NCBI GenBank assembly: GCA_037893245.1
Contig: JBAIAA010000443.1
Coordinates: forward strand, 806,001-870,000
DNA from: Crossaster papposus
Taxonomy: Eukaryota; Echinodermata; Asteroidea; Velatida; Solasteridae
DNA: 64,000 nt
Reading direction: 5' to 3'
Shown here: positions 45,428 through 60,927 of the stretch, one piece after another
Layout: every line of letters starts with the position of its first letter
Position numbering within the stretch: position 1 is the stretch's first letter
The notes under the pieces: generated by a model
Databases searched by the model: none
What the model saw: only the letters and a program-made list of their open reading frames with translations
Told to the model about the DNA's origin: nothing
Position numbers and translations under genes: made by a program

Positions 45428-45434
45428 GTTCTAC
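45428..45434. repeat. Left target-site duplication
   Basis: GTTCTAC directly precedes the left TIR and is repeated at 60492-60498 after the right TIR. An extra G sits before it (GGTTCTAC), and the right copy reads ATGGTTCTAC, so an 8-bp duplication sharing one base with the TIR is also possible. Confidence 0.8.
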
Positions 45435-45465
45435 CATAGAGCAAGGAACAGAAGGAGTTACAACT
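45435..45465 (+). repeat. Left 31-bp terminal inverted repeat
   Basis: Starts CATAGAGCAAGGAACAGAAG and is identical over 31 bp to the complement of 60461-60491. After one mismatch the likeness continues as CCCC. Close by (45500-45521) is a tandem pair of GGTCGTAAAAC, a candidate subterminal transposase-binding site. Confidence 0.97.
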
Positions 45466-45639
45466 GCCCCAACTTAAAAGGCCCCACGAAAGTTACCGCG
45501 GTCGTAAAACGGTCGTAAAACAGTTGGACTCTCGACCGCAGCTTAACGACGGCCTCGCGCTTATCGGTCGATCTTTGCGCTGACGTCACGGAAAAATACC
45601 CACGATGCAGTGCGCGATGTAGCGTCCACATCAACCAAA

Positions 45640-48282
45640 ATGGCGGCTTACGGTAAAGACGACTTTGTATTCAGTGGTTTCGATGATTATGATTTTAGTG
45701 ACTTTTCTGACTTTTCTGATGAAGATAATAACGACAAAAATGAAATATCCTCATCCGAATCTGACCGTGAAGACGACATTCGTCAGTATTGCGTGTGCAA
45801 AGGCCAGATGACAAAAGATATGATCGGGTGCGATCGTATAAATTGTGACATCGAATGGTGGCATTACAAATGCGCTGGTGTTACTGGAGAAACGATCCCA
45901 GAAGGGGACTGGTATTGCCCCAAATGTGTTTCCAGTGCAACAGAAACCGGACTTCATGGTGAGTACTACTGTTGTCACAAAACACCAATTGTCTTTTAAG
46001 TTTTAAATCGAAGTATTTGTGAGAACATAAAGTAAAACTTCGTCATTGCAAATATGATTTGCAAATTTACCAATAAAATTAAAATGTCCTTCAATAAGTT
46101 CAACTCAATTCAATTATGTTTTCGACATTTGTATAGGCATAAGCACTTGTATGATTATTGATATCACCCCAGGGTTTGTTATTTAATCCATACAGCAAGG
46201 AACAGATTGAAGTGCATCGTGTCAGAGTAAATTTGTGATTTTAATTATCAATTATATGCTTTCTAATTGAAATATTTTAATTGTTATTTTTTTCTAGGAC
46301 CCTCGAGATCTGAAGCAGTGGTTAGCCACCAAACAGTTGATGATTCTACTGAGCAAGGTAACCACAGTGCATCACCGGTCATTCAGCAACTGACAAGTAC
46401 ACCAGACTCTAATGCAGAACCTGATGCAGCCCCGAGAGATAAACCATCTGCAACAGTCACTAAGCCAAAAAAAGGAACAAGTAAAAACAAAGGTACTGAA
46501 CATAAAGGATTGTTAATAACATCATCTCAACGTGATTAGACTGTTTGTCTCAGGATAGAGCAAGGCCAAGGGTCTCGGTAATAATCATCATTGCACCCCC
46601 CCCCCCCCCCCCTTCTTTCCACAAAATACGTTAGCGATGTCACAAATCAGGTGATCAGGATCCAAGTTTTTTTTCTTTAGACGAGCCCCCGCATCAATTT
46701 TTTTAATGTATGCACATGTACATTACAATCATTCGTTTCATTTTTAGATGGAACACCAACATCAAAGGATGTTGTGAATGAGAAGAAAACTCCAGACAAC
46801 GGAAAAAAGAACGTAAAGAAAAGACAGAAAGGTATGTAGTGCACAAAATTAATTTTAAAATATCCGCCTAACATAATTTAACCGAGACTTTATTTCACAG
46901 ATTCTTTTTAAACAGTGTAAATATACAAAACCATATTTGACTGTTCAAACCATTTCCAAACATAGTCTGAACTAGAATACAGTACAATAAATTATCACGC
47001 TTTTGTAATCTTTAAAAAACACAGGCACTGGCATAATTATGTACATGTATAGGCATTGTGAAGGACCATTTACGTGATATTGTCACATTGTTATTTAAAC
47101 CATTTTGCATACAGCAAAAATCTGTTTTAATTTTCACACAAGGTTTCCTCTACACAATACTTAAATACAAGTAATGGAAATACATTTAAAGGGTTCATTC
47201 AGTTGGCGTAAAGGAGTCAAAAATGTATATTTATACAATTGATTATTTTTCCTTGTTTTTCAGCCCCCGAACGACCAAAGGCAACTTTCACCGAGACTGA
47301 TGCAATAACGAATGCTACTTCATTTTTTGTGACCAGTCTGCAAAACATGAGAGACCACCCGATTCTTAGTTGTGGCAGTGAGACGTCTCTGATTATTTTA
47401 AGCATTATTATGCAATTACTTGTGAGCACTGAGGAAGTAGCCTTCGTAGAGTTTTGCAAGTCCTCTGTTTTAGGCCTTTGGATTGTTCTTACATCATGTG
47501 AGGGCAAAAGTCTAAAGCCTGAAGTGTATGAAGGCATGTGGTGCAAGTTTCATGACTATCGAATAAGTTCATGCGCAAAATGTGAAGAATTACTCAAGGT
47601 CCTAAATATCTCATACAAATCAAAACATGCCATGAAACTGACTTATCAATATGTAATACAAGCCGTCTTTGGCCTACTTATGAAGGAAAGAAACAAGGCT
47701 GACTTGCCAGAAAAAGACACGACAGTTAATGTAGAGATGGAAAAAGAGGAGGAAAAAGTGCTAAGATATATAGCTGGGTATATACCATTTGCACTGTTAA
47801 AAAGATACAAAAAACAGGTGAATAATACAGCAAAAATGTACTGCGAATTTCTAAAATACTGGTCTGTTCAAAGTGTAATCACTGGAAGAACCTTTTTAAG
47901 TTACACAAAAGAATGGATTGATGCCCAAAATCGAGGTAGATTATTTACAGTCTCAGATGATGTGTATTTGTTTTTTCGATCGATGGAACTAGTAAGTAGG
48001 TCATTTCTGACGACGTCAAATCTTAACAATATGAGAGAACTTAACCTAAACAAAGTATTGCTCAATAACATAAGCACCAACTATCGAGTACAAACTTACT
48101 GGTGTGCTCTCACTGACAGTAAATTAAACGGTGATGCCTCGGAAGTGTTTCTCGACATTATAATACGATACTACATAAAGCTTCGTTGTAAGGCGTTTTT
48201 AAGAGTGTACCTAGACATTAGAAAGGCATCAACAAAACAAGTCTCCAAAAAAGGTGAAAAGGCACTGCGAAAGGACTTGTAG
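45640..48282 (+). CDS. PHD-finger protein of the transposon (four exons, 538 codons)
   Basis: Exons 45640-45958, 46298-46492, 46748-46831 and 47264-48282 join in one open frame; all introns are phase 1 with GT/AG borders. The start ATG sits in CCAAAATGGCGG. Residues 9-46 are acidic with repeated DFSDFSDFSDED. Residues 50-96 are a complete C4HC3 PHD finger (C51, C53, C64, C69, H75, C78, C93, C96), with YCVCKG, an aromatic W73-W74 and GDWYCPKC as in ING-type H3K4me-reading fingers. Exons 2-3 are a low-complexity basic linker. Exon 4 is a helical domain with EEEKVLRYIAGYIPFALLKR and NRGRLFTVSDDVYLFFRSME, which resembles the region after the DDE core in P/hAT-type transposases. No catalytic triad is seen. 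I infer a chromatin-reading accessory protein for the convergent transposase; the fold of exon 4 is uncertain. Confidence 0.85.
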
Positions 48283-48338
48283 TATTTTGTAGTATTGGAG
48301 CAAATTAACGGTTTGTCTCTAAATAAGAAAGGTATGTT

Positions 48339-48542
48339 TTAACCAGTTAGCGCCGGATGACGTATATAAACGAAAAGTTTTCCCCAAATTTAAAACGGAT
48401 GACGCATAAACATGCCAAGTTCGGGAATGTCTGTCAGCAGCGAGCAAAGCCAAAAATGCTTGGGTGTGCTTCCCGGCACTATCGGCCTGAACACGCTTCG
48501 GATCGAGTTTCGTTAAAAATAGTCCCGACGCGAACTGGTTAG
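48339..48542. mobile_element. TTAA-flanked MITE, copy 3
   Basis: TTTTAACCAGTTAGCGCCGG to CCCGACGCGAACTGGTTAG, nested between the two convergent genes. The right TTAA is mutated and the body is shorter than in the 13856 copy. Confidence 0.8.
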
Positions 48543-49052
48543 AGCATAGCAGGGTAAGGACCCGGTAATCACTGTGTGATGACGTACCGGGCGGGGGGAT
48601 GACTGCTGGTAATGGACCTCACCTTCGGCGCAGTCCATTACCATTGGTCATGTATATGAAAAAATAAGGAAACAAAATTAATTTGGCTTTGTACAAAATA
48701 TACAAGTGGATAAAGCACCAAGTCAAAATACCTTGTTTTACACAACAATTTTGTTAACAGTAATGTGTATTCAATTCTCATACACTACATGTATATTGAA
48801 TTTGGTTTTTTTCCCGGGACCAAACCCATTCGAATAGAACAGAATAAAAGTACATTTGCCAGATGCTGTATAAGTATTTGTATTTTTCGTTCGGCAATTT
48901 GTCGATAAATTGTCTCCCCCCCCCCCCCAAAGGAAACAGAGTCCCAAAGTAACTGAATAGGTAAAGACGTTGATTTAGCTGGATTATGTACTGTTTCTCT
49001 AATACTCTGTGAATTAATATTCCACAAAATATTGAAAACGTATAGATACCCT

Positions 49053-52000
49053 CTATTTGTCTTTTTTACGCTTAGGAAGTGGGGTGTCATCAATATGGTG
49101 AGAATTCTTTTCCCCACTGTCCTTAACATTAGCCCGTTTGGAAGCTTTAATGGCTTCTCTAGACACATGAAATGCCATCATGTTGTGGCCAAACTGTTCT
49201 GCTGTGGGGTTATCTGAACTCCCTCCCACTGACCGTTGCTTGGAAAAATACATTTCCAGTGGATCTTGATTAAATCGTTCGCTTAGAAGATAATCTACTT
49301 CTGGATTCTGCAGCAGTACCTTTGCCAACTCGATGAAGGAATGCACTAAAAACAAAAAAAAAGCAATTATGGAATGTTTTAATTTAATTTACCAAGTCGC
49401 TTGGAATGTATCTTTGATGTGTGATTGTTTGTCAATAATCTGGTGCACATTCTTGAGGAAATACAACAGGCATTTGAAAAAAAAAAAAAAATATAGTACA
49501 TTGTACTCCCTCCAGTGTCTCCCTGCTGAGGCACATCTTCTGCTTGACATCTTTGTTTACATTCTCATGGCTTTGAGCTTCCTTCTCCCAGTCGTCTAAG
49601 AAACCGAGGAACTCGTCTTTAAGCCACTATTGAAATAACAACATAGAAGTCTTCAGTAAGCTGTGCAGTGTTGGGCAACATATTAAACGGACTTCTTAAT
49701 ATTTTGTGGTAAAACAATATTTAAAAGTCTTGCTGGTTTTTTTCATGCCATAGGCCTCAATAAATACATGTACATCAGGTACATGCAAATTTTCACGCAC
49801 TTGTACAGTCGACTCTTGTTAATACAAACTCTGTTAATACAAATTCTGTTTATAGCAAACATAAAGCCTAGGTCCCGACAATGAGCAAAATAAATGGGAC
49901 GGGCATTCCGCTTAACAAAATTGGCTGACTCTGTATTAACAAGAGTCGACTGTATAGCTTTTTATCTAGAATTACGACCATAGTTTCACTCGCATAACGG
50001 GCCCAACAAAATAGGGTAGGTAGGTAGGTATTCTCTTTTTTTCTTTTTTTTTTCCTCCCAGCAATGAAAATGATGTTTTCTAATTGTTTAAGCCGATAGT
50101 GATACAAGATAGCGTGTCCAGGTTCAATTTTTTCACAATCCACACACACAACAATGAGAAACGGTCAGAAATGGTTTCAAATGTATTTATAACTAGTTTT
50201 ATATAGATTTTAATCAGTAAATTTCGTCCCTTGAAAACAAAATTATCCAGGGTCGGCCGTATTTTTAGGTTCGGTCTGGTTACGCCAACATAACATTTTT
50301 TTTGTTTATGCCTTACTTATAAGCTAAAATTAATATTTGAGCAAATTTACCTTGAAGCGCCAGTCGTCCACACTCTTGTAAGGAGCCAGGGCAGCCTTCT
50401 GCTTGTGGTGGGACTCATGCGGATTACTCACATTGAGGCAATCAAAGAACTGATCAAAGTTCGACACGAACAATTGTGTAGACTTGGTGTCATGCCGGCC
50501 TAAAGCACAAAGGGCGTTTGCAACTGTGCTGCTCAGTACCTACAGACATAACAAATGAATACAATTAACATGAACTTCACACTTATTTAAAACTTATTTC
50601 ATTTAAACCTTATCTCATGGATTATCAATAAAGAAAGTAAAGCAGCCATAGAATTTGTTTAACAAAGACAATCGGAAATACAACTGCACAACTACATGTA
50701 TATCAATGTTGACTTTAAATTGTCTAATCTAAAAAGTACTTGTACATACTTGTGTGGCCATGTATACACGCATTCGCAGTGTTGGACTCGGGTGAAGGTG
50801 CTCGTAGGTTAGTTTATGCAGTTTCCGTAAGCCTGGGGATTGTCTGTTGAGTCCAACATCCCAGTCATAAAGTGCCAGTAGTTGAGGCCACTTAATATCT
50901 TGCTTCTTGTACTGTAAGAAGAATGAACCAAAATTGTTTTGAAAAAAATCACACACATCGCTGTTAAAGATCTGACAATTACCTTTGAAAATGTAATAAA
51001 GAAAAAGACAAAAACAGAAATAAACTAGAAATGTGTTTGTGGACAAACACAGAGCTGTTTCGCATGTCTAAAATGCCTTTCAATATTTGTGTGGTGGTCT
51101 AAGTGTGTGCCAAGTCTAAAGTCGATCGAATTTAGTGCCAAAGATAAATTGGTTGAAAAAAACGTGTACAAATCCTATGGGGAAAATTAAACCTTTAATG
51201 TGACGTCACATGATACCCGATGATGTCATCATGATGTCATCTTAATTTTCGTCTGTAACACATCCTGGAATACTTGCATACCAAGTTTGACCCCAATCGG
51301 ACATGTACTTCTAGAGATAGAGGGTCCTTAAAACTGAACCTTTAATGTGACGTCACATGACCCACGATGACGTCATTATTACGATTTTTCCCTTGGCCCT
51401 CCTGGGGATGGTGGTCGAGGTATGCGCTAAGTCTGAAGTCGATCAAATTTACGAAAGTGTCAAAGTCAATAGTCTGAAGAAAAACGTGTACAAACCCTAT
51501 GGGGAAAAAAAGTGCACCTTTAACGTCACGTCACGTGATCTTGAATGACGCGATCGCGCCGAATTTCTTTCAGAAATATCTGGGGCTGGTGTTCTAAGTG
51601 TATGCCAAGTTTCAAGTCGGTCGGATTTACCAAAGTGTCAAAGTCAATAATCTGAAGAAAAACGTGTACAAAACCTATGGGGAAAATTTTACCTTTAACA
51701 TGACGTCACGTGACCTTGAATGAGGTAATCGCGACGAATTTCTTCTAGGACCGTCCTTGGGTGGTTGTCTAAATATATGCCAAGTTTCAAGTCGATCGGA
51801 TTTACCAAAGTGTCAAAGTGCTATGCCAGAACAAACGTGTACAAATCCTATGGGAAAAAGTCTGAAAGAGGAAAAAAAAAAAAAACTAGACATGTGTTTG
51901 TGGACAAACACAGAGCTGTTTCGAGTGTCTAAAATTACTTTCAATATGTGTGTGGTGGTCTTTTGTGTGTGCCAAGTCTCAAGTCGATCAGATTTACTAA

Positions 52001-52576
52001 AGTGTCAAAGGCAATAGTCTAAAGAAAAACGTGTACAAAACCTATGGGAAACAATTGAAACTTTAACGTGACGCCCCGTGACCTTGAATGACGTAATCGT
52101 GCCGAATTTTTTCTAGGGCCGTCTGTGGATGGTGGTCTAAGTGTGTGCCAAGTCTCAAGTCGATCGGATGTACTAAAGTGTTAAAGTCAATAGTCTAAAG
52201 AAAAACGTATACAAAACCAATGGGAGAAAAATGTGAACCTTTAATGTGACGTCACGTGACCTTGAATGACACAATCGTGCCGAAGTTCTTTCAGAAACAT
52301 CTGGGGGTGGTGTTCTAAGTGTATGCTAAGTTTTAAGTCGGTCGGATTTACCGAAGTGCCAAAGTCAATAGTCTGAAGAAAAACGTGTACAAAACCTATG
52401 GGGAAAATTAAACCTTTAAAGTGACGTCACTAGGACCATCTGTGGGTGGAGGTCTAAGTGTACACCAAGTCTCAAGTCGATTGGAATCACCAAAGTGCCA
52501 AAGTGTATTGGCAGAACAAACGTGTGTAAATCCTATGGGTAAAAACACTAAAAGTGGAAAAAAAAAAAAAGGAAAA

Positions 52577-52607
<31 letters not shown>

Positions 52608-55600
52608 CTTTAACGAAAACAAAAGCTGTTTCGGTGGAAAACCGAAACAGCTAAAAACTAGAAATGTGTTTGTGGACAAACACAGAGCTGTTTCGCATGT
52701 CTAAAATGACTTTCAATATTTGAGTGGTGGTCTAAATGTGTGCCAAGTCTAAAGTCGATCAAATTTAGTACCAAAGATATATTGGTTGAAAAAAACGTGT
52801 ACAAATCCTATGGGGAAAAATAAACCTTTAATGTGACGTCACATGACACCCGATGATATCATCACAATGTCATCTTAATTTCCGTCTATAACACATCCCG
52901 GAATACCTGAATACCAAGTTTGACCCTAATTGGACTTGACTTCCAGAGATAGAGGGTCTTAAAAACTACACCTTTAATGTGACGTCACATGACCCACGAT
53001 GATGTCATCATGACGTCACCCTGATTTGTGTCTATAACACATCCTGGAATACTTGCATACCAAGTTTGACCCCAATAGGGCCTGTACTTCCAGAGATAGA
53101 GGGGCCTAAAAACTGCACCTTTAATGTGACGTCACATGACCCACGATGACGTCATCATGACGATTTTTCCCTTGGCCCTCCTGGGGATGGTGGTTGAGGT
53201 GTGTGCTAAGTCTCAAGTCGATCAAGTCTACGAAAGTGTCAAAGTCAATAGTCTGAAGAAAAACGTGTACAAACCCTATGGGGAAAAAATGTGCACCTTT
53301 AACGTCACGTCACGTGACTTTCAATGTTTGGGTGGTGGTCTAAATGTGTGCCAAGTCTAAAGTCGATCGAATTTAGTGCCAAAGATATATTGGTTGAAAA
53401 AACGTGTACAAATCCAATGGGGAAAATTAAACCTTTAATGTGACGTCACATGACACCCGATGATATCATCACAATGTCATCTTAATTTTCGTCTATAACA
53501 CATCCCGGAATACTTAAATACCAAGTTTGACACTAATTGGACTTGTACTTAAAGAGTTAGAGGGTCTTAAAAACTACACCTTTAATGTGACGTCACATGA
53601 CCCACGGTGATGTCATCGTGACGTCACACTGATTTTCGTCTATAACACATCCTAGAATACTTGCATACCAAGTTTGACCCCAATCGGGCCTGTACTTCCA
53701 GAGATAGAGGGGCCTAACAACTGCACCTTTAATGTTACGTCACATGACCCACAATGACGTCATCATGACGATTTTTCCCTTGGCCCTCCTGGGGATGGTG
53801 GTTCAGGTGTGTGCTAAGTCTCAAGTCGATCAAATGTACGAAAGTGTCAAAGTTAATAGTCTAAAGAAAAACGTGTACAAAACCTATGGGGGAATAATTT
53901 GAACATTTAACGTGACGTCACGTGACCTTGAAAGACGCAATGGTGCCGAATTTCGTCCAGGACTATCTGTGAGTGGTGTTCTAAGTGTATGCCAAGTCTC
54001 AAGTCGATCGGATTCATTAAAGTGTCAAAGTCAACAGTTTGAAGAAAAACGTGTACAAAACCTATGGGGAAAATGTTACCTTTAACATGACGTCACGTGA
54101 CCTTGAATGACGCAATCGCGACGAATTTCTTCTAGGACCGTCCTTGGGTGGTTGTCTAAATGTATGCCAAGTCTCAGGTTAATCGGATTTACCAAAGTGT
54201 CAAAGTGTATTGGCAGAAAAAACGTGTACAAATCCTATGGGAAAAAGTGACAAATAAAAAAAAAAAAAAGAAAAAAGAAAAAAAAAAAGAAACTAGAAAT
54301 GTGTTTGTGGACAAACACAGAGCTGTTTCGCGTGTCTAAAATGACTTTGAATTATGTGGGTGGTCGTCTATGTGTGTACCAAGTCTGAAGTCGATCGGAT
54401 TTACCAAAGTGCCAAATATATATTGGTTGAAAAAAACGTGTGCAAATCCTATGGGGGAAACTACACCTTTAATTTAACATCACATGACACCTGATGACGT
54501 CACCATGGCGTCACCTTTATTTTCGTCTATAACACGTCCCGGAATACCTGTATACCAAGATTGACACCAATCGGGCCTGTACTTTCAGAGATATAAGGTC
54601 TTAAAAACTGAACCTTTAATGTGACGTCACATGACCCACGATGACGTCATCATGATGTCACCTTAATTTTCGTCTATAACACATCCCGGAATACATGCAT
54701 ACCAAGTTTGACCCCAATCACACCTGTACCTACGGAGACAGAGGGTCTTAAACACTGCACCTTTAATATGACGTCACATGACCCGAGATGACGTCATCGT
54801 GACGATTTTTCTCCTTGCCCTCCTAGGGATGCTGGTCTAAGTGTATGCCAAGTCTCAAGTCGATCGGATTTACGAATGTGTCAAAGTCCATAGTCTGAAG
54901 AAAAACGTGTACAAACCCTATGGGGAAAAAAATTGCACCTTTAACGTCACGTCACGTGACCTTAAATGACGCAATCGTACCGAATTTCTTCAAGAGCCAT
55001 CTGTGGGTGGTGTTCTAAGTGTATGCCAAGTTTCAAGTCGGTCGGATATACCAAAGTGTCAAAGTCAATAGTCTGAAGAAAAACGTGTACAAAACCTATG
55101 GGGAAAATTGTACCTTTAACATGACGTCACGTGACCTTGAATGACGGAATCGCGACGAATTTCTTCTAGGACCGTCCTGGGGTGGTTGTCTAAATGTATG
55201 CCAAGTCTCAAGTCGATCGGATTTACCAAAGTGTCAAAGTGCTATGCCAGAAAAAACGTGTACAAATCCTATGGGGAAAAGTCTGAAAGAGGGAAAAAAA
55301 AAAAAAAAAGAAAAAAAAAAGAAAAAAAGAAAAAAATAGAAATGTGTTTGTGGACAAACACAGAGCTGTTTCGGGTGTCTAATTTGTTTTGTAATAAGTG
55401 GGTGGTGGTCTAAGTGTGTCGCAAATCTGTAGTCAATCTTATTTACCCAGGTGCCAAAGATATATTGGGTGGAAAAAACGTGTACAAATCCTTTGGGGAA
55501 AACTACACCTTTAAGGAGACGTCACATGACCAACGATGACGTCATCATGATGTTATTTTAATTTGTGTCTATAACACACACTTGAATACTTGCATGCCAA

Positions 55601-56659
55601 GTTTGACCCCAATCGGACTTGTACTTCCAGAGATAGAGGGTCTTAAAAACTACACCTTAAATGTGACGTCACATGACCCACGATGACGTCATCATGACGT
55701 CATCTTAATTTTCGTCTATAACACATCCTGGAATACTTGCATACCAAGATTGACCCCAATCAGACCTTTACTTCCAGAGATAGAGGGTATTAAAAACTAC
55801 ACCTTTAAAGTGACGTCACATGACCCACGATGACGTCATCATGACGATTTTCCTTGTGGCCCTCCTATGGATGGTGATCGAGGTGTGTACTAAGTCTCGA
55901 GTCGATGGGATTTACCAAAGTGTCAAAATCAATAGTCTGAGGAAAAACGTGTACAAACCCTATGGGGAAAAATTACACCTTTAATGTGACGTCACATGAC
56001 ACCCGATGACGTCATCTTTATGTCATCTTAATTTTCGTCTGTAACACATCCTGGAATACTTGCATACCAAGTTTGACCCCAATCGGACATGTACTTCTAG
56101 AGATAGAGGGTCCTTAAAACTGAACCTTTAATGTGACGTCACATGACCCACGATGACGTCATTATTACGATTTTTCCCTTGGCCTTCCTGGGGATGGTGG
56201 TCGAGGTATGCGCTAAGTCTGAAGTCGATCAAATTTACGAAAGTGTCAAAGTCAATAGTCTAAAGAAAAACGTGTACAAACCCTATGGGGAATACAATTG
56301 CACCTTTAACGTCACGTCACGTGACCTTGAATGACGCAATCGTGCCGAATTTCTTTCAGAAACATCTGGGGCTGGTGTTCTAAGTGTATGCCAAGTTTAA
56401 AGTCGGTCGGATTTACCAAAGTGTCAAAATCAATAGTCTGAAGAAAAACGTGTACAAAACCTATGGGGAAATTTTTACCTTTAACATGACGTCACGTGAC
56501 CTTGAATGACGTAATCGCGACGAATTTCTTCTAGGACCGTCCTTGGGTGGTTGTCCAAATGTATGCCAAGTATCAAGTCGATCGGATTTACAAAAGTGTC
56601 GAAGTGCTATGCCAGAAAAAACGTGTACAAATCCTATGGGAAAAAGTCTGAAAGAGGAA

Positions 56660-56706
<47 letters not shown>

Positions 56707-58932
56707 CTTTAACGAAAACAAAAGCTGTTTCGGCTGAAATGCCGAAACAGCTAAAAAAACTTTAACGAAAACAAAAGCTGTTTCGGCTGAAATGCCGAAA
56801 CAGCTAAAAAAAAAACTTTAACGAAAACAAAAGCTGTTTCGGCTGAAAGGCCGAAACAGCTAAAAAAAAAAAAAAAGAAAAAAAAAAACTTTAACGAAAA
56901 CAAAAGCTGTTTCGGCTGAAATGCCGAAACAGCTAAAAAATCATAAATTTAGGCGGATTTAGTTTTTCCCCTTGTAAAATTGCTCATAATCTGCAGAAAA
57001 GTATGCAAACCAAAACATCCTCTCTATGGTTGTATCTTACTATTTTTTCCAGAAATGTATTGCTACATAAACAAAGGTTTGGATTTTGTAATGGAGCATA
57101 CTTACATGCAAGTTTCTTGTTTTGTTGTTATATCCTGAATTTTCCCAGTTGTTTCGGGTAGTCTTCATGAGGTGTGGTGGGTCGCAAAAAAAGTACAGCT
57201 TGTGTGGTGATGCAAGATGAGGGGTGGAGTATATGAGCTCATCTCGAGGGCCATGCATCCTGTAGAATTTTCTGTTCGGTGAAGCTCCATCGGAAACGAA
57301 GGCTCTGACAGAAAACCCCACTGCCTCCAATAGCATGACTGCTTCCCACATACAAGGATAGAGTTGATGACTAGAAATACTAAGACTGGGGAAGTACCCG
57401 ATCGGTGACCGCAAAGACGTAAAGATCCCACGGATCATCAAAACTAACACATGGCTAGCAATGGGGACATCTCCATCTTGGCACCTCTTCTCGAACTGTA
57501 CAATTTCATTACCTATGCAGCCCACATCTACAAAACCCACAACAGCTCCAGACCTCACCGAGTAGACTAAACTAGCCTTGATCTTCATCTCATCAAACAT
57601 GATGCAGACTTCCCTCTCATGCTGCTGCAGGGAATCTAGGTTGATGTCCTTGGCAACACGTAGTACAAGATCTGAATTAAAACCAGGAGCCGGGTTGCCA
57701 AAATGTGTGTACTGATGGAGGGTGTTTGGGTGAGGCAGTTTTAAAAAACCACTCTCTCGCAGCAGATTATAGGACGAAGAAGATGCTTTGCAAAGCGATG
57801 CAGAACCTGATTATGGCCGGATGCCATCTCATCCCTTTTCCCTTTTGAAGTGCTGCCTTTTGCTGCTCCCAGAGCAAACCTGCTGGTGTTCCCTCAGTCA
57901 CGGCCGACTTGAAATCATGTTCCCCTTCATCCATCGCCTTCTGGAGAAAAGCCCCCTCTCGACTGCTGACAGCGACACTCTCCCCTTTCATCATTTCCTC
58001 AATCCTCGTATGGAGTGCTGCATTCTTCCTTTTCAATGCCTTGTTTTCCACTTTAAGCAGCTTCATTTTCGTCTGTAACTCTGTATGAGAGAGAATACTA
58101 TTTTTGATGCTGGAAGAAGTGGTGATGTCCCGTGAAGCTGCACCATCAACACGGGATGCCAACACCGTTAAATCAACCTTAAACATCAGGCACACCTCAC
58201 ACTGCACAGCTGGTTCAGGGACAAGGAGGCGACATCTCTTGTGGCGTACTGTCGCAAATGGTACATCTGCACCAAATCCCTATTAGTGATGGACATGGGA
58301 TATTGACCCGCTGAACCATCCCGCGATTTAACAAGATCAGCAAATCCTGCGTTTCCGGTGCATATGTTGCATTTCTCAAGTGTTTCCAACACTTTTGCAA
58401 AGATATCTACATCCGCTCTTACTGGTAAATCCTGCAGAACTAGACATCCTGACCCTTTAATATCGACACCACAAACTGCAATTTGCATTGTCAAATTGTT
58501 TTGGATAAATATCTCCAACTCTGGGCGCCCACTACTTCCAAGATGAATGAACTTCAACACATCTGTGCCACGCCACTTCAAGAACGAAGGATATCTCACC
58601 AACACAGCATTACATTTGTCACAAAACGCCGACAAATCTTCATCTTCTTGCTGTGCAACACATTGGTCACATTGATGCAGTGCAAATGAGGGCACTTGTA
58701 TATTTATTTGCTGCTTCTTTCTCAGCTTGGCAGCACTCCACCACTTGTGTAGTTTTCTGAAGCAGGTGTGACATACAAAAGGTGGATGGGATGCAGCATC
58801 ATCCTCATCAACATCAAGGGCCCTCAAAATTATCTCTCGGTATTTTTCTTTCACATGAGGATGTCTCCTGTCAACCCCTGAGGCACCATCTCCCCCACAC
58901 AATCTGCATACATCCTGCAGGCATGCAGCCAT
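49053..58932 (-). CDS. P-element/THAP9-type transposase with RAG1-NTD-like zinc module
   Basis: The product should cut and join DNA at the element's TIRs. Five exons: 58932-57106, 50911-50750, 50539-50351, 49626-49500 and 49345-49053, with matching phases (0, 0, 0, 1), about 860 residues (human THAP9 is about 900). Residues 9-91 hold CRLCG, RRHP, CHTC and CDQC as in the RAG1 N-terminal region. Next come a Cys cluster (CNIC; HKRCRLLV; QCEVC) and a coiled coil (LQTKMKLLKVENKALKRKN). The P-type RNase H core follows: IMFDEMKIKASLVYS, GFVDVG, AFVSDGASPNRKF, DPPHLMKTTRNNW, then WPQLLALYDWDVGLNRQSPG, LRMRVYMATQVLSSTVANAL, FLGFLDDWEKEA, ETLEGVQ, SERFNQDPLE and GGSSDNPTAEQF. The acids expected for catalysis (FDEM, VSDGA, QDPLE) are all present. 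The tail is basic (PKRKKDK). The start is the ATG at 58932 (AAGATGGCTGC). Two frameshifts lie in exon 1, near 58285 and 57780; either errors or inactivation. Confidence 0.88.
49806..49952. mobile_element. Pogo-like MITE, 147 bp, TA-flanked
   Basis: CAGTCGACTCTTGTTAATAC at 49806-49825 is perfectly inverted at 49933-49952, and TA flanks each side. CAGT-starting ends with TA duplication are typical of the pogo/Tc1 group. It sits in a transposase intron. Confidence 0.9.
51027..56945. repeat. Repeat array rich in GTGACGTCAC, in the transposase intron
   Basis: Five modules start near 51027, 51886, 52658, 54293 and 55336, each with CTAGAAATGTGTTTGTGGAC or a close variant, containing the hairpin GTGTTTGT-GG-ACAAACAC and then AGAGCTGTTTCG. 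Within modules two subunits alternate: TGCCAAGTCTCAAGTCGATC with CGGATTTACCAAAGTGTCAAAG and AAAAACGTGTACAAA..CTATGGGG; and TACCAAGTTTGACCCCAATC with CAGAGATAGAGGGTC and CACCTTTAATGTGACGTCAC. Modules end in A-rich tracts. The tail AAAGCTGTTTCGGC..GCCGAAACAGCT closes one at 52620-52654 and is repeated four times at 56720-56935. Short ORFs (NVYKPYGEK, MTHDDVIITIFPLALLGM) repeat with the units and are not genes. Confidence 0.9.
56700..56940. repeat. Four tandem GCTGTTTCGGC hairpins
   Basis: CTTTAACGAAAACAAAAGCT followed by GTTTCGGCTGAAATGCCGAAAC and poly-A recurs four times (near 56705, 56760, 56815 and 56890). Each can fold as an 11-12-bp stem. This is a local amplification of the array's 3' tail. 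Confidence 0.9.
58660..58932 (-). other. RAG1 N-terminal-like zinc-binding region
   Basis: Residues 1-91 of the transposase: C9-x2-C12-G, RRHP at 22-25, an amphipathic stretch ending DVDEDDAASHPP, C54-x2-C57 with F-R-K-L-H-K-W-W-S-A after it, then H86 and C88-x2-C91. Vertebrate RAG1 shows the same order: CRICG, RRYP, a segment ending KADVDSIHPTE, FCHNCW-IMH-KFS, then HTPSCDIC. The spacing between paired cysteines is close in the two. In RAG1 this region precedes the RING and catalytic core and is not needed for DNA cleavage. Similarity is by eye. Confidence 0.75.
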
Positions 58933-60460
58933 CTTGGACCAGTTGAACAAACGACACCAGGATCACAAAACCAGGATACACAAAACTAACGAGTGAAAGC
59001 ATGTATTTTTCAGAACACCCCTTATGTAAAGAAGAGCGATACAGATGCTGTAATAAAATAACAAAGAGATACAATTTTTAATTAGTTCAATATTTTCTTC
59101 AAATAAAATTGAAAATGTTTACCTATCCAAAACAGTCATCAACAATTAACAATTCTTTATTGATGTAGACTACGTCATGTGTGTCTTAATTGGCTAATAC
59201 CGCCGTTTTACCAATAAGAGCAGTTTCTGTTTTTTTCTGTGATATCTCTCTTTAACTTAATTTTTGTTTAATTGATTATAAAAATGAATCACAAGAAAAA
59301 ATACTTAGAGTGCACCGGTCCATAATTCAGTAGACAGACATGAGACAATGTATCTCTATCATAAAATCGTAGAGATACAAGTTGTTACCTTAATCAAGTT
59401 GACAGGAAATCAAGAATATTTTATTTTGCAAACAATACAAGTTTCTTACTTAACGTTAATTTGTAATCCTACCTACCGATACAAATCGAAAAAAATAAAA
59501 AAAATAAAAAAATGTGAACATAAATACAAACAACACTCTTCAAAGTTGAAACATCTATTTATAATTCTAAAACACTTATTTCGATGTATTCTTCCAATAC
59601 TTGCCGATTCATATCGCGAGTTAACGTCGAAGCATCCTTTATATACGTAACAGCCGTTGAAAAGTGCAACCATAACAACGTGCACAAAAAAACACGATTA
59701 CAACGGCCGTTTTATGTTTAGCATAGTAGCTTTCAATCATCGCGGCAAGTTTCGCATGCTCAACTGTACCACGAAAAACATTGTACCACGAAAAACAAAT
59801 CAAAATAACTTAATTTTCCTATCTATTTTAGTACAAGATGATATCAAATTATAAAATGCACATACTAATGACTTTGACTCGAAAATAGGACAGTCAAAAA
59901 ACATAACTGAACGACCGAAAACGTCTTTTTTGACGATGATTTTTCAGCTTGTGGGCCAATGTGGGACGGGTTGAACAGTACATCAAACTGAAAAGGAGAA
60001 TCTTACAACCACAGTCGATATCCTTTTAGGTGTAGGGAACGCTAGGAACGATCACTTTTATATTAAAATATGAAATTCATATTTTGGGTTTTCGGTAAGC
60101 AGTTTTGAGTTGGCAAGGAGCGTAACTTACCAACCGATGGGCCGATTTTTACTGTTCAAAAACCGACCAGAAGCGAAAGATCATTTTCTCTTCGATGGCG
60201 ACCATATTGAAACTACACATGCCTCGTGGAAGCTCTAACACGCATGCGTTGTCAGTGTTTGTTCTACGGTCGATACTCCAATGATGCCAAGCGAACGACG
60301 CTTACCAGCGATGAGCAGCGAAACGCGGTAACACTCGTAGGGCCCGAAAGGCTGGCTGTGGTCGTTAAATTTACAAGCGCCGCGGGATGTCCCATAGAGT
60401 TTCTACAGGGCCGGGGAGGCCGATGATTGATTAATGCGATAGCTTAAGTGGCTTGGGGGA
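58933..60460. other. Upstream region of the transposase gene
   Basis: About 1.5 kb between the transposase start and the right TIR, presumably holding its promoter. It contains a tandem CGAAAAACATTGTACCACGAAAA (59771-59797) and an AAATAAAAAA run (59490-59510). Small ORFs show no family likeness. Confidence 0.5.
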
Positions 60461-60491
60461 AGTTGTAACTCCTTCTGTTCCTTGCTCTATG
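60461..60491 (-). repeat. Right 31-bp terminal inverted repeat
   Basis: AGTTGTAACTCCTTCTGTTC to GCTCTATG, the exact complement of 45435-45465. Followed by GTTCTAC (60492-60498), the second copy of the flanking duplication. Confidence 0.97.
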
Positions 60492-60679
60492 GTTCTACAT
60501 ACACATTGTACCATAGATATGGACGTACAAAACAACATGTACTTTGTGTAGCGGTACATGCTCACTTTTGCGTGAACTTGTGTACCGGTAGGTCAATTTA
60601 CGTGTACAACATTTTCAAACCTAAAAAGAAAAAACAAACTACTGAAAAGCCTACATTTACGTGCATTGTGAGTGAATAT

Positions 60680-60927
60680 TTAACCAGTTCCCGTCGGAGG
60701 ACGTATAAAAGTTTACACGCAAAGATTCCCCCCAATTCAAAACGGATGATGCATAAACAAGTCACAAGCAAGGCCGGAAATGTCTGTCAGCAGCAAGCAA
60801 AGCTGACAATGCGTGGGTGTGCTTCTTGGTACCATCGGCCTGAACCCGCCTCAGATCGAGTTTCGTTAAAAATATTCACGCGCCTCGGCTCGGTGATGTT
60901 AAAATAATGACGGCTTGAACTGGTTAA
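60680..60927. mobile_element. TTAA-flanked MITE, copy 4
   Basis: TTAACCAGTTCCCGTCGG to GACGGCTTGAACTGGTTAA, same orientation as copies 1-3, more diverged. It lies about 190 bp outside the right TIR of the 15-kb element. Confidence 0.8.

Follow-up and report, generated by a model that had tools for sequence, protein, structure and literature searches.

The window analysed here is a 64,000-nucleotide stretch of the Crossaster papposus genome (contig JBAIAA010000443.1, C443 below, positions 806,001 to 870,000 of the forward strand), and coordinates without a contig name refer to it. Between 45,435 and 60,491 it carries a transposon whose nearest homologs are found in sea stars and which contains a partner gene (protein B) on the + strand and a transposase gene (protein A) on the − strand. 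We consider it very likely that this is a two-component, split transposon of the P superfamily, in which the C-terminal domain (CTD) of the transposase is encoded in trans, together with a PHD finger, by the partner gene. A preliminary description made from the sequence alone had reported perfect 31-bp terminal inverted repeats (TIRs), a 7-bp flank and two spliced genes meeting tail to tail between the repeats, all of which was confirmed. The ends and the extent of the element are defined by the following features:

45428–45434, unstranded: left target site duplication (TSD), GTTCTAC, from the letters and the comparison of TIR pairs
45435–45465, + strand: TIR on the partner side, from the repeat search and the genome 31-mer search
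51005–56947, unstranded: imperfect direct repeat block within a transposase intron, from the repeat search
60461–60491, − strand: TIR on the transposase side, from the repeat search and the genome 31-mer search
60492–60498, unstranded: right TSD, GTTCTAC, from the letters and the comparison of TIR pairs

The 31-bp core, which starts with CATAG, is identical at the two ends in inverted orientation, and lies within arms of 38 nt (45433–45470 and 60456–60493) that are complementary at 97%. The element ends read CATAGAGC and do not resemble recombination signal sequences. The search space was the animal's own genome (1,023,315,904 bases in 1841 contigs), where the 31-mer gave 28 matches with at most three mismatches versus none for the reversed-pattern control. 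These matches formed seven facing pairs, six of them bordered by a perfect 7-bp duplication that was different in every case (CTTTTAC, CTCCAAC, GTTCTAC, GTCCAAC, CTCAGAG, and ATGCAAC), while the pair on C53 had no 7-bp duplication. The element has been mobile in the past.

Both genes were present at full length in two of the seven pairs and as remnants in four, while one pair held no more than a sliver of the partner gene. The copy on C273 (L029) is 8,900 bp long, is flanked by CTCCAAC, and carries both genes open and tail to tail, coding for a partner of 538 and a transposase of 870 residues. In the window copy the partner is open, and the transposase differs from that of L029 by two frameshifts in the first exon and an altered end of exon 6. 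The copies on C910, C267, C544, and C53 have internal deletions, and the 0.6-kb element at C991:80553–81178, a miniature inverted-repeat transposable element with its own 7-bp TSD, consists of the two ends and extends into the first partner exon by about 75 bases. Thus, none of the six pairs with substantial coding remains had kept one gene only. The reported size of 15 kb has to be qualified: the ends and both genes stood, but the transposase is frameshifted, about 6 kb of this length (51.0–56.9 kb) are intronic direct repeats absent from L029, and the complete copy is only 8,900 bp. Between the window copy and L029, the ratio of nonsynonymous to synonymous substitution amounted to 0.32 in the partner gene and 0.20 in the transposase gene (binomial p on rounded counts, 0.007 and 1.3e-7, respectively), and the coding sequences, to judge from these substitutions, are under purifying constraint. 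Fourteen TIR sites remained unpaired, and seven of them were read onward; no coding match appeared on further reading at C74, C162, C850, C456, C834, and C167, and C579 proved to be a decayed relative with pieces of both genes on the same strand. C721 holds two 97% copies, for which there was no 31-mer match with three or fewer mismatches.

The exon borders of the transposase gene were established by reading the splice sites and by comparing the copies:

57106–58932, − strand: first exon with the N-terminal domain (NTD), a second Cys-rich region, a coiled-coil-like segment, a helix-turn-helix (HTH) and RNaseH_N, interrupted by two frameshifts (Pfam, copy comparison)
58660–58908, − strand: RAG1-NTD-like zinc module (Pfam, profile comparison)
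57256–57690, − strand (C443:863256–863690): N-terminal half of the RNase H domain, PF21787 (genome profile search)
50747–50908, − strand: exon (comparison with copies)
50352–50540, − strand: exon (comparison with copies)
49494–49626, − strand: exon with a 3′ end unlike that of the intact L029 (comparison with copies)
49053–49345, − strand: last exon with RNaseH_C, the NQDPLE motif and the stop codon (Pfam, copy comparison)

The window transposase matched TNP-like_RNaseH_N (1.2e-26) and RNaseH_C (9.6e-10) in Pfam, and its catalytic core matched the P-type structure 6p5a with an E value of 3.8e-17, in agreement with the P-element/THAP9-type DDE core read from the sequence before. The three catalytic acids of the P-superfamily RNase H domain are present at the positions given in PMC7776569. 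The GTP-binding insertion domain (GBD, PF21788) scored above the cut-off in all ten homologs scanned, this being a result for the homologs only, and the HTH model was also matched in homologs. Pfam scans of ten homologs (one truncated at its start) and of the scanned window exons revealed no THAP domain, and those of the P-type proteins no RING. All eight homologs with RNaseH_C terminate 34–53 residues beyond it; L029 does likewise, its open transposase stopping about 45 residues past the RNase H domain without a CTD in cis. As protein A ends so soon after RNaseH_C, the CTD, if needed, must come from elsewhere. A P-type transposase of the thrips Frankliniella fusca (P0022) also ends shortly after RNaseH_C and had no RAG1-type NTD in a Pfam scan; judging by this protein, the CTD split may be older and wider than the echinoderms.

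The partner gene was resolved as follows:

45640–45958, + strand: exon 1 with an acidic SDFSD segment and the PHD finger (splice sites; 95–96% in L029 and L033)
45787–45927, + strand: ING-type PHD finger, residues 50–96 (Pfam PHD 1.9e-5; ING3 2.4e-14)
46298–46492, + strand: exon 2, linker (splice sites, sister copies)
46748–46831, + strand: exon 3, linker (splice sites; open in L029)
47264–48282, + strand: exon 4, conserved helical C-terminal region up to the stop (splice sites, homologs)
47731–48231, + strand: part of exon 4 with a predicted fold similar to the P-transposase CTD, residues 617–734 of 6p5a (predicted-structure comparison)

These four exons form an open gene of 538 codons, the product of which starts with an acidic segment (charge −13 over 48 residues). 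In the predicted model, the exon 4 region seems to adopt the fold of the P-transposase CTD and not that of a RAG2-like body. The Pfam profile PF22824.1 (THAP9_C) reached none of the 14 partner rows, its later version is assigned to P0003 and P0004, two of the 12 homologs considered, and Foldseek returned no match at an E value of 0.001 or better for either model. THAP9_C-like frames of 271–288 residues were also seen on C543, C510, C130:1816655, C804:1121135, C245 (two), C826, and C233; no PF21787 lay nearby among the matches listed, and they are perhaps CTD-only genes of other split elements.

The PHD finger noted in the preliminary description is complete, but a kinship of it with RAG2 was not supported. 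With a profile of ten partner PHD sequences the closest solved fingers were those of the ING family (E 2.3e-20), and RAG2 was not among the 34 and 50 chains listed, so an origin of the finger from RAG2 was rejected. The aromatic-cage positions (Tyr/Phe, Met, and Trp), which we take to correspond to those of ING2, were kept in all ten, and histone binding is predicted. Neither a further ING domain, unlike in the ING family, nor a kelch propeller was found by Pfam in the exons of the window, in the exon 4 alignment, or in seven homologs of the partner. In partner homologs the C-terminal region is retained even where the PHD finger has been replaced, as in the amphioxus partner, which carries a C2H2-like finger instead; this swap suits an exchangeable targeting head.

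The module at the N-terminus of the transposase matched RAG1 with an E value of 8.2e-10 when a 14-sequence profile was used, and Pfam RAG1_imp_bd scored above the cut-off in two of the ten homologs scanned, bearing out the RAG1-NTD-like module reported earlier. The resemblance might reflect a generic ZAD-like zinc fold, with nothing special in its likeness to RAG1, and RAG1 NTD and ZAD may indeed be one fold class; the solved RAG1 NTD (21wb) was not among the fold-search matches listed. Such an explanation appears decidedly unlikely since RAG1 led ZAD (0.0018) by more than six orders of magnitude with the same profile, and the best member gave 1.4e-11 for PF12560 against 1.8e-6 for zf-AD. By sequence comparison, the module is taken to be homologous to the N-terminal domain of RAG1 and Chapaev, and it stands where fly P and THAP9 have their THAP domain. 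A third context of the module was found at L044–L049 (C616, C630, and C117), where a RING-like stretch follows downstream; these loci were named Chapaev-type from their layout, after PMC4411706. The origin of the module was examined by pairwise scores only, one RAG1 and one Chapaev-type sequence being compared with 14 P-type modules. RAG1 scored 110 with the Chapaev-type module and 53–94 with the P-type modules, and 13 of the 14 P-type modules (ten by shuffled z-score) scored higher with Chapaev than with RAG1. These scores favour passage of the module among transposase superfamilies, and the proposal that the RAG1 module came from a P-type element is not supported, RAG1 being closer to the Chapaev-type module. 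In 2015, it was stated that other known transposable elements lack RING and Chapa domains (PMC4411706); the P-type element runs against this statement for the Chapa/NTD module only.

The RAG1-homologous NTD, the convergent gene order, which is also that of the RAG-like (RAGL) pairs (PMC7204232), and the PHD finger of the partner would all fit an element of the RAG lineage that exchanged its core and took its PHD partner from RAG2. The core is of the P type, though, the finger is nearest to ING, the kelch propeller was not found in the partner scans, and the TSD is 7 bp long versus 5 bp, which makes such a descent highly improbable.

The gene pair is not confined to the window. A genome search with partner exon 4 found 43 places, of which 19 span 336–338 of the 338 residues free of stops; these full-length genes were counted, and 24 partial or stop-bearing matches were left out. 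The PF21787 search gave at least 131 matches (150 of 172 candidates scored). Seventeen of the 19 partner genes had a PF21787 match within 10 kb, convergent in all 17, where about 0.003 neighbours per locus would be expected by chance; the recurrence of the pair, anticipated earlier, was therefore borne out, and a host PHD gene living apart from transposases was rejected. The partner on C603 lies 0.6 kb from a convergent transposase NTD fragment (92% identical, two stops), while that on C430 is an exception, with no transposase piece in either set of listed matches but a related TIR alongside (C430:443909). Among the larger left-out matches, C305:33569, C165:664421, and C381:1674493 had no PF21787 within 10 kb among the matches listed, and C850:39191 had a convergent PF21787 neighbour. 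In the reverse check, which covered at least 57 transposase matches (from the best 74 of 369 candidates scored), those with a query start of 41 or less were taken as NTD-bearing and counted by eye. A convergent partner match lay within 10 kb of 15 of the 16 NTD-bearing transposase matches, including the broken or partial members on C850, C443, and C603, the exception being C556:257784.

The 19 partners were sorted by us into eight families, 41–100% identical to the window exon 4, and the 5′ regions of both genes were read in one member of each of families F2–F8. All seven partners have an acidic start and a PHD finger, and all seven transposases have the CRxCG module, which in the F5 copy read (C17) is out of frame with the rest of the transposase. 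Sequence distances among the partner exons 1 correlated with those among the N-terminal parts of the transposases across nine pairs, one from each of the eight families and one from Acanthaster (r = 0.77; 0 of 20,000 shuffles), which shows, at the level of sequence, that partner and transposase co-diverge. As for the concern that the PHD gene might lie outside TIRs, the F2–F8 partners adjoin P transposases, but no common word longer than 13 bp was shared by the two fetched 5′ stretches, except in F5 with a related TIR at the partner end only; with no F2–F8 TIR pair, enclosure by TIRs is demonstrated for F1 alone. The related TIR (CATAGAGAAAGGAACAGAAGGAGTTCCAACT) occurs at C17:2298371, C430:443909, C509:709286, C890:514328, C1249:31422, and C410:687483, and F5 partner genes adjoin it at five of these six sites (not C410), so the TIR sequence is partly common to families whose partner genes are just 44% alike. 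Both proteins were also found in Acanthaster (LOC110988468 and LOC110988470, each on a 398,091-base contig) and in ENA (P0010 and P0028, each on a contig of 76,877), and from contig size and numbering each pair appears to share one contig.

Pieces of host genes are carried by transposons, and ING-type PHD fingers are common in host proteins. An ordinary P element may by chance have captured a host PHD gene in this lineage. As a recent event this is hardly credible: the same pair occurs in eight families with exon 4 as little as 41% identical, and apparently in Acanthaster and one ENA contig; both genes are constrained, and the C-terminal region is conserved in partner homologs where the PHD finger is replaced. 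The likely course is an ancient capture of a PHD finger by a pre-existing CTD gene.

The element represents a new layout of the P superfamily, in which the THAP domain is replaced by a RAG1/Chapaev-type module and the CTD appears to have moved to a convergent gene that also encodes the PHD finger. Both proteins probably serve a single function, in plan like RAG1 and RAG2 but of separate origin. In the proposed mechanism, protein A would pair the element ends and cut, and protein B would dock onto it by way of its CTD. In the fly complex, the CTD contacts target DNA, and its neighbours on either side are the RNase H domain from one subunit and the GTP domain from a second. The PHD finger would then bias the choice of target towards chromatin bearing histone H3 trimethylated at lysine 4 (H3K4me3) or license activity there, the likeliest of its roles as far as the sequence can tell. 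The partner could instead be a regulator outside the transpososome, its PHD finger keeping the element's own chromatin active or controlling copy number or the expression of the transposase, with a CTD-like fold that does no more than bind the DNA ends; a protein of CTD and chromatin reader alone could serve as competitor or activator, and its acidic N-terminus resembles an activation segment. We regard this as unlikely, given that protein A ends just past RNaseH_C in all eight homologs with this domain and that the pair is retained, co-diverging, in eight families. The wider proposition, that a non-Transib superfamily independently built a RAG-like two-protein recombinase with a RAG1-homologous NTD and a co-evolving CTD in trans, joined to an H3K4me3 reader that targets active chromatin, is the one towards which we lean on balance.

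Like Drosophila P, zebrafish Pdre2, and THAP9, the element has a DDE RNase H core split, in its homologs, by a GBD-type insertion, and as in P elements the HTH model is matched in its homologs. Its ends open with CATA as in Pdre2 (PMC10983969), and fly P has a perfect 31-bp TIR, too (PMC7776569). It differs from P elements in its RAG1-type NTD, in the CTD, which by predicted fold lies on the second gene with the PHD finger and not in cis, in the TSD of 7 bp versus 8 bp in fly (PMC7776569) and zebrafish (PMC10983969), and in having no clear subterminal inverted repeat, the longest in the element being 11 bp. With RAG1–RAG2, ProtoRAG, and RAGL it shares two convergent genes within TIRs (here for F1 only), a homologous NTD in the catalytic protein, and a PHD finger in the second protein, with an amphioxus member devoid of PHD in both systems (for RAGL, PMC7204232). 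In contrast, the core is P instead of Transib, the finger ING-type instead of RAG2-type, the partner has a predicted transposase CTD fold, with no kelch propeller found, and the TSD is 7 bp versus the 5 bp of RAGL (PMC7204232). Chapaev transposases likewise begin with the NTD (Chapa) module, but their core is, as far as read, not of the P kind and a RING-like stretch is present. The Aplysia transposon N-RAG-TP (Panchin and Moroz 2008) is alike by description, encoding a RAG1-N-terminus-like protein (PMC8355894, PMC2996935). In the open-licence literature, Repbase and subscription papers being outside this scope, no description was found of a transposase of the P type that carries a RAG1-type NTD or has a PHD partner.

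Two long-standing questions, the origin of the RAG1 NTD and the reason why V(D)J recombinase consists of two proteins, one of them with a histone reader, have so far rested on a single lineage, Transib/RAG. In the present element that module is joined to a core of the P type, and the general layout of a catalytic protein with a convergent PHD protein recurs with a PHD finger of other origin and a partner resembling a piece of the transposase. If the split holds, it shows how a second subunit can arise through fission of a transposase, and PHD-guided targeting can be tested in a system that spans several families, has moved recently and includes a pair of open genes; if the wider proposition is true, it offers a second, separate instance for testing the logic of RAG1/RAG2.

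A few minor repeats accompany the element. The repeat block at 51005–56947 includes A-rich stretches, and in the C53 copy similar repeats lie close to the left end. Two stretches of 112 nt, 85% identical to each other, form a further repeat, one inside the element (48416–48527) and the other just beyond its right end (60769–60880); stretches like it also occur near the TIR sites of L023 and L024.

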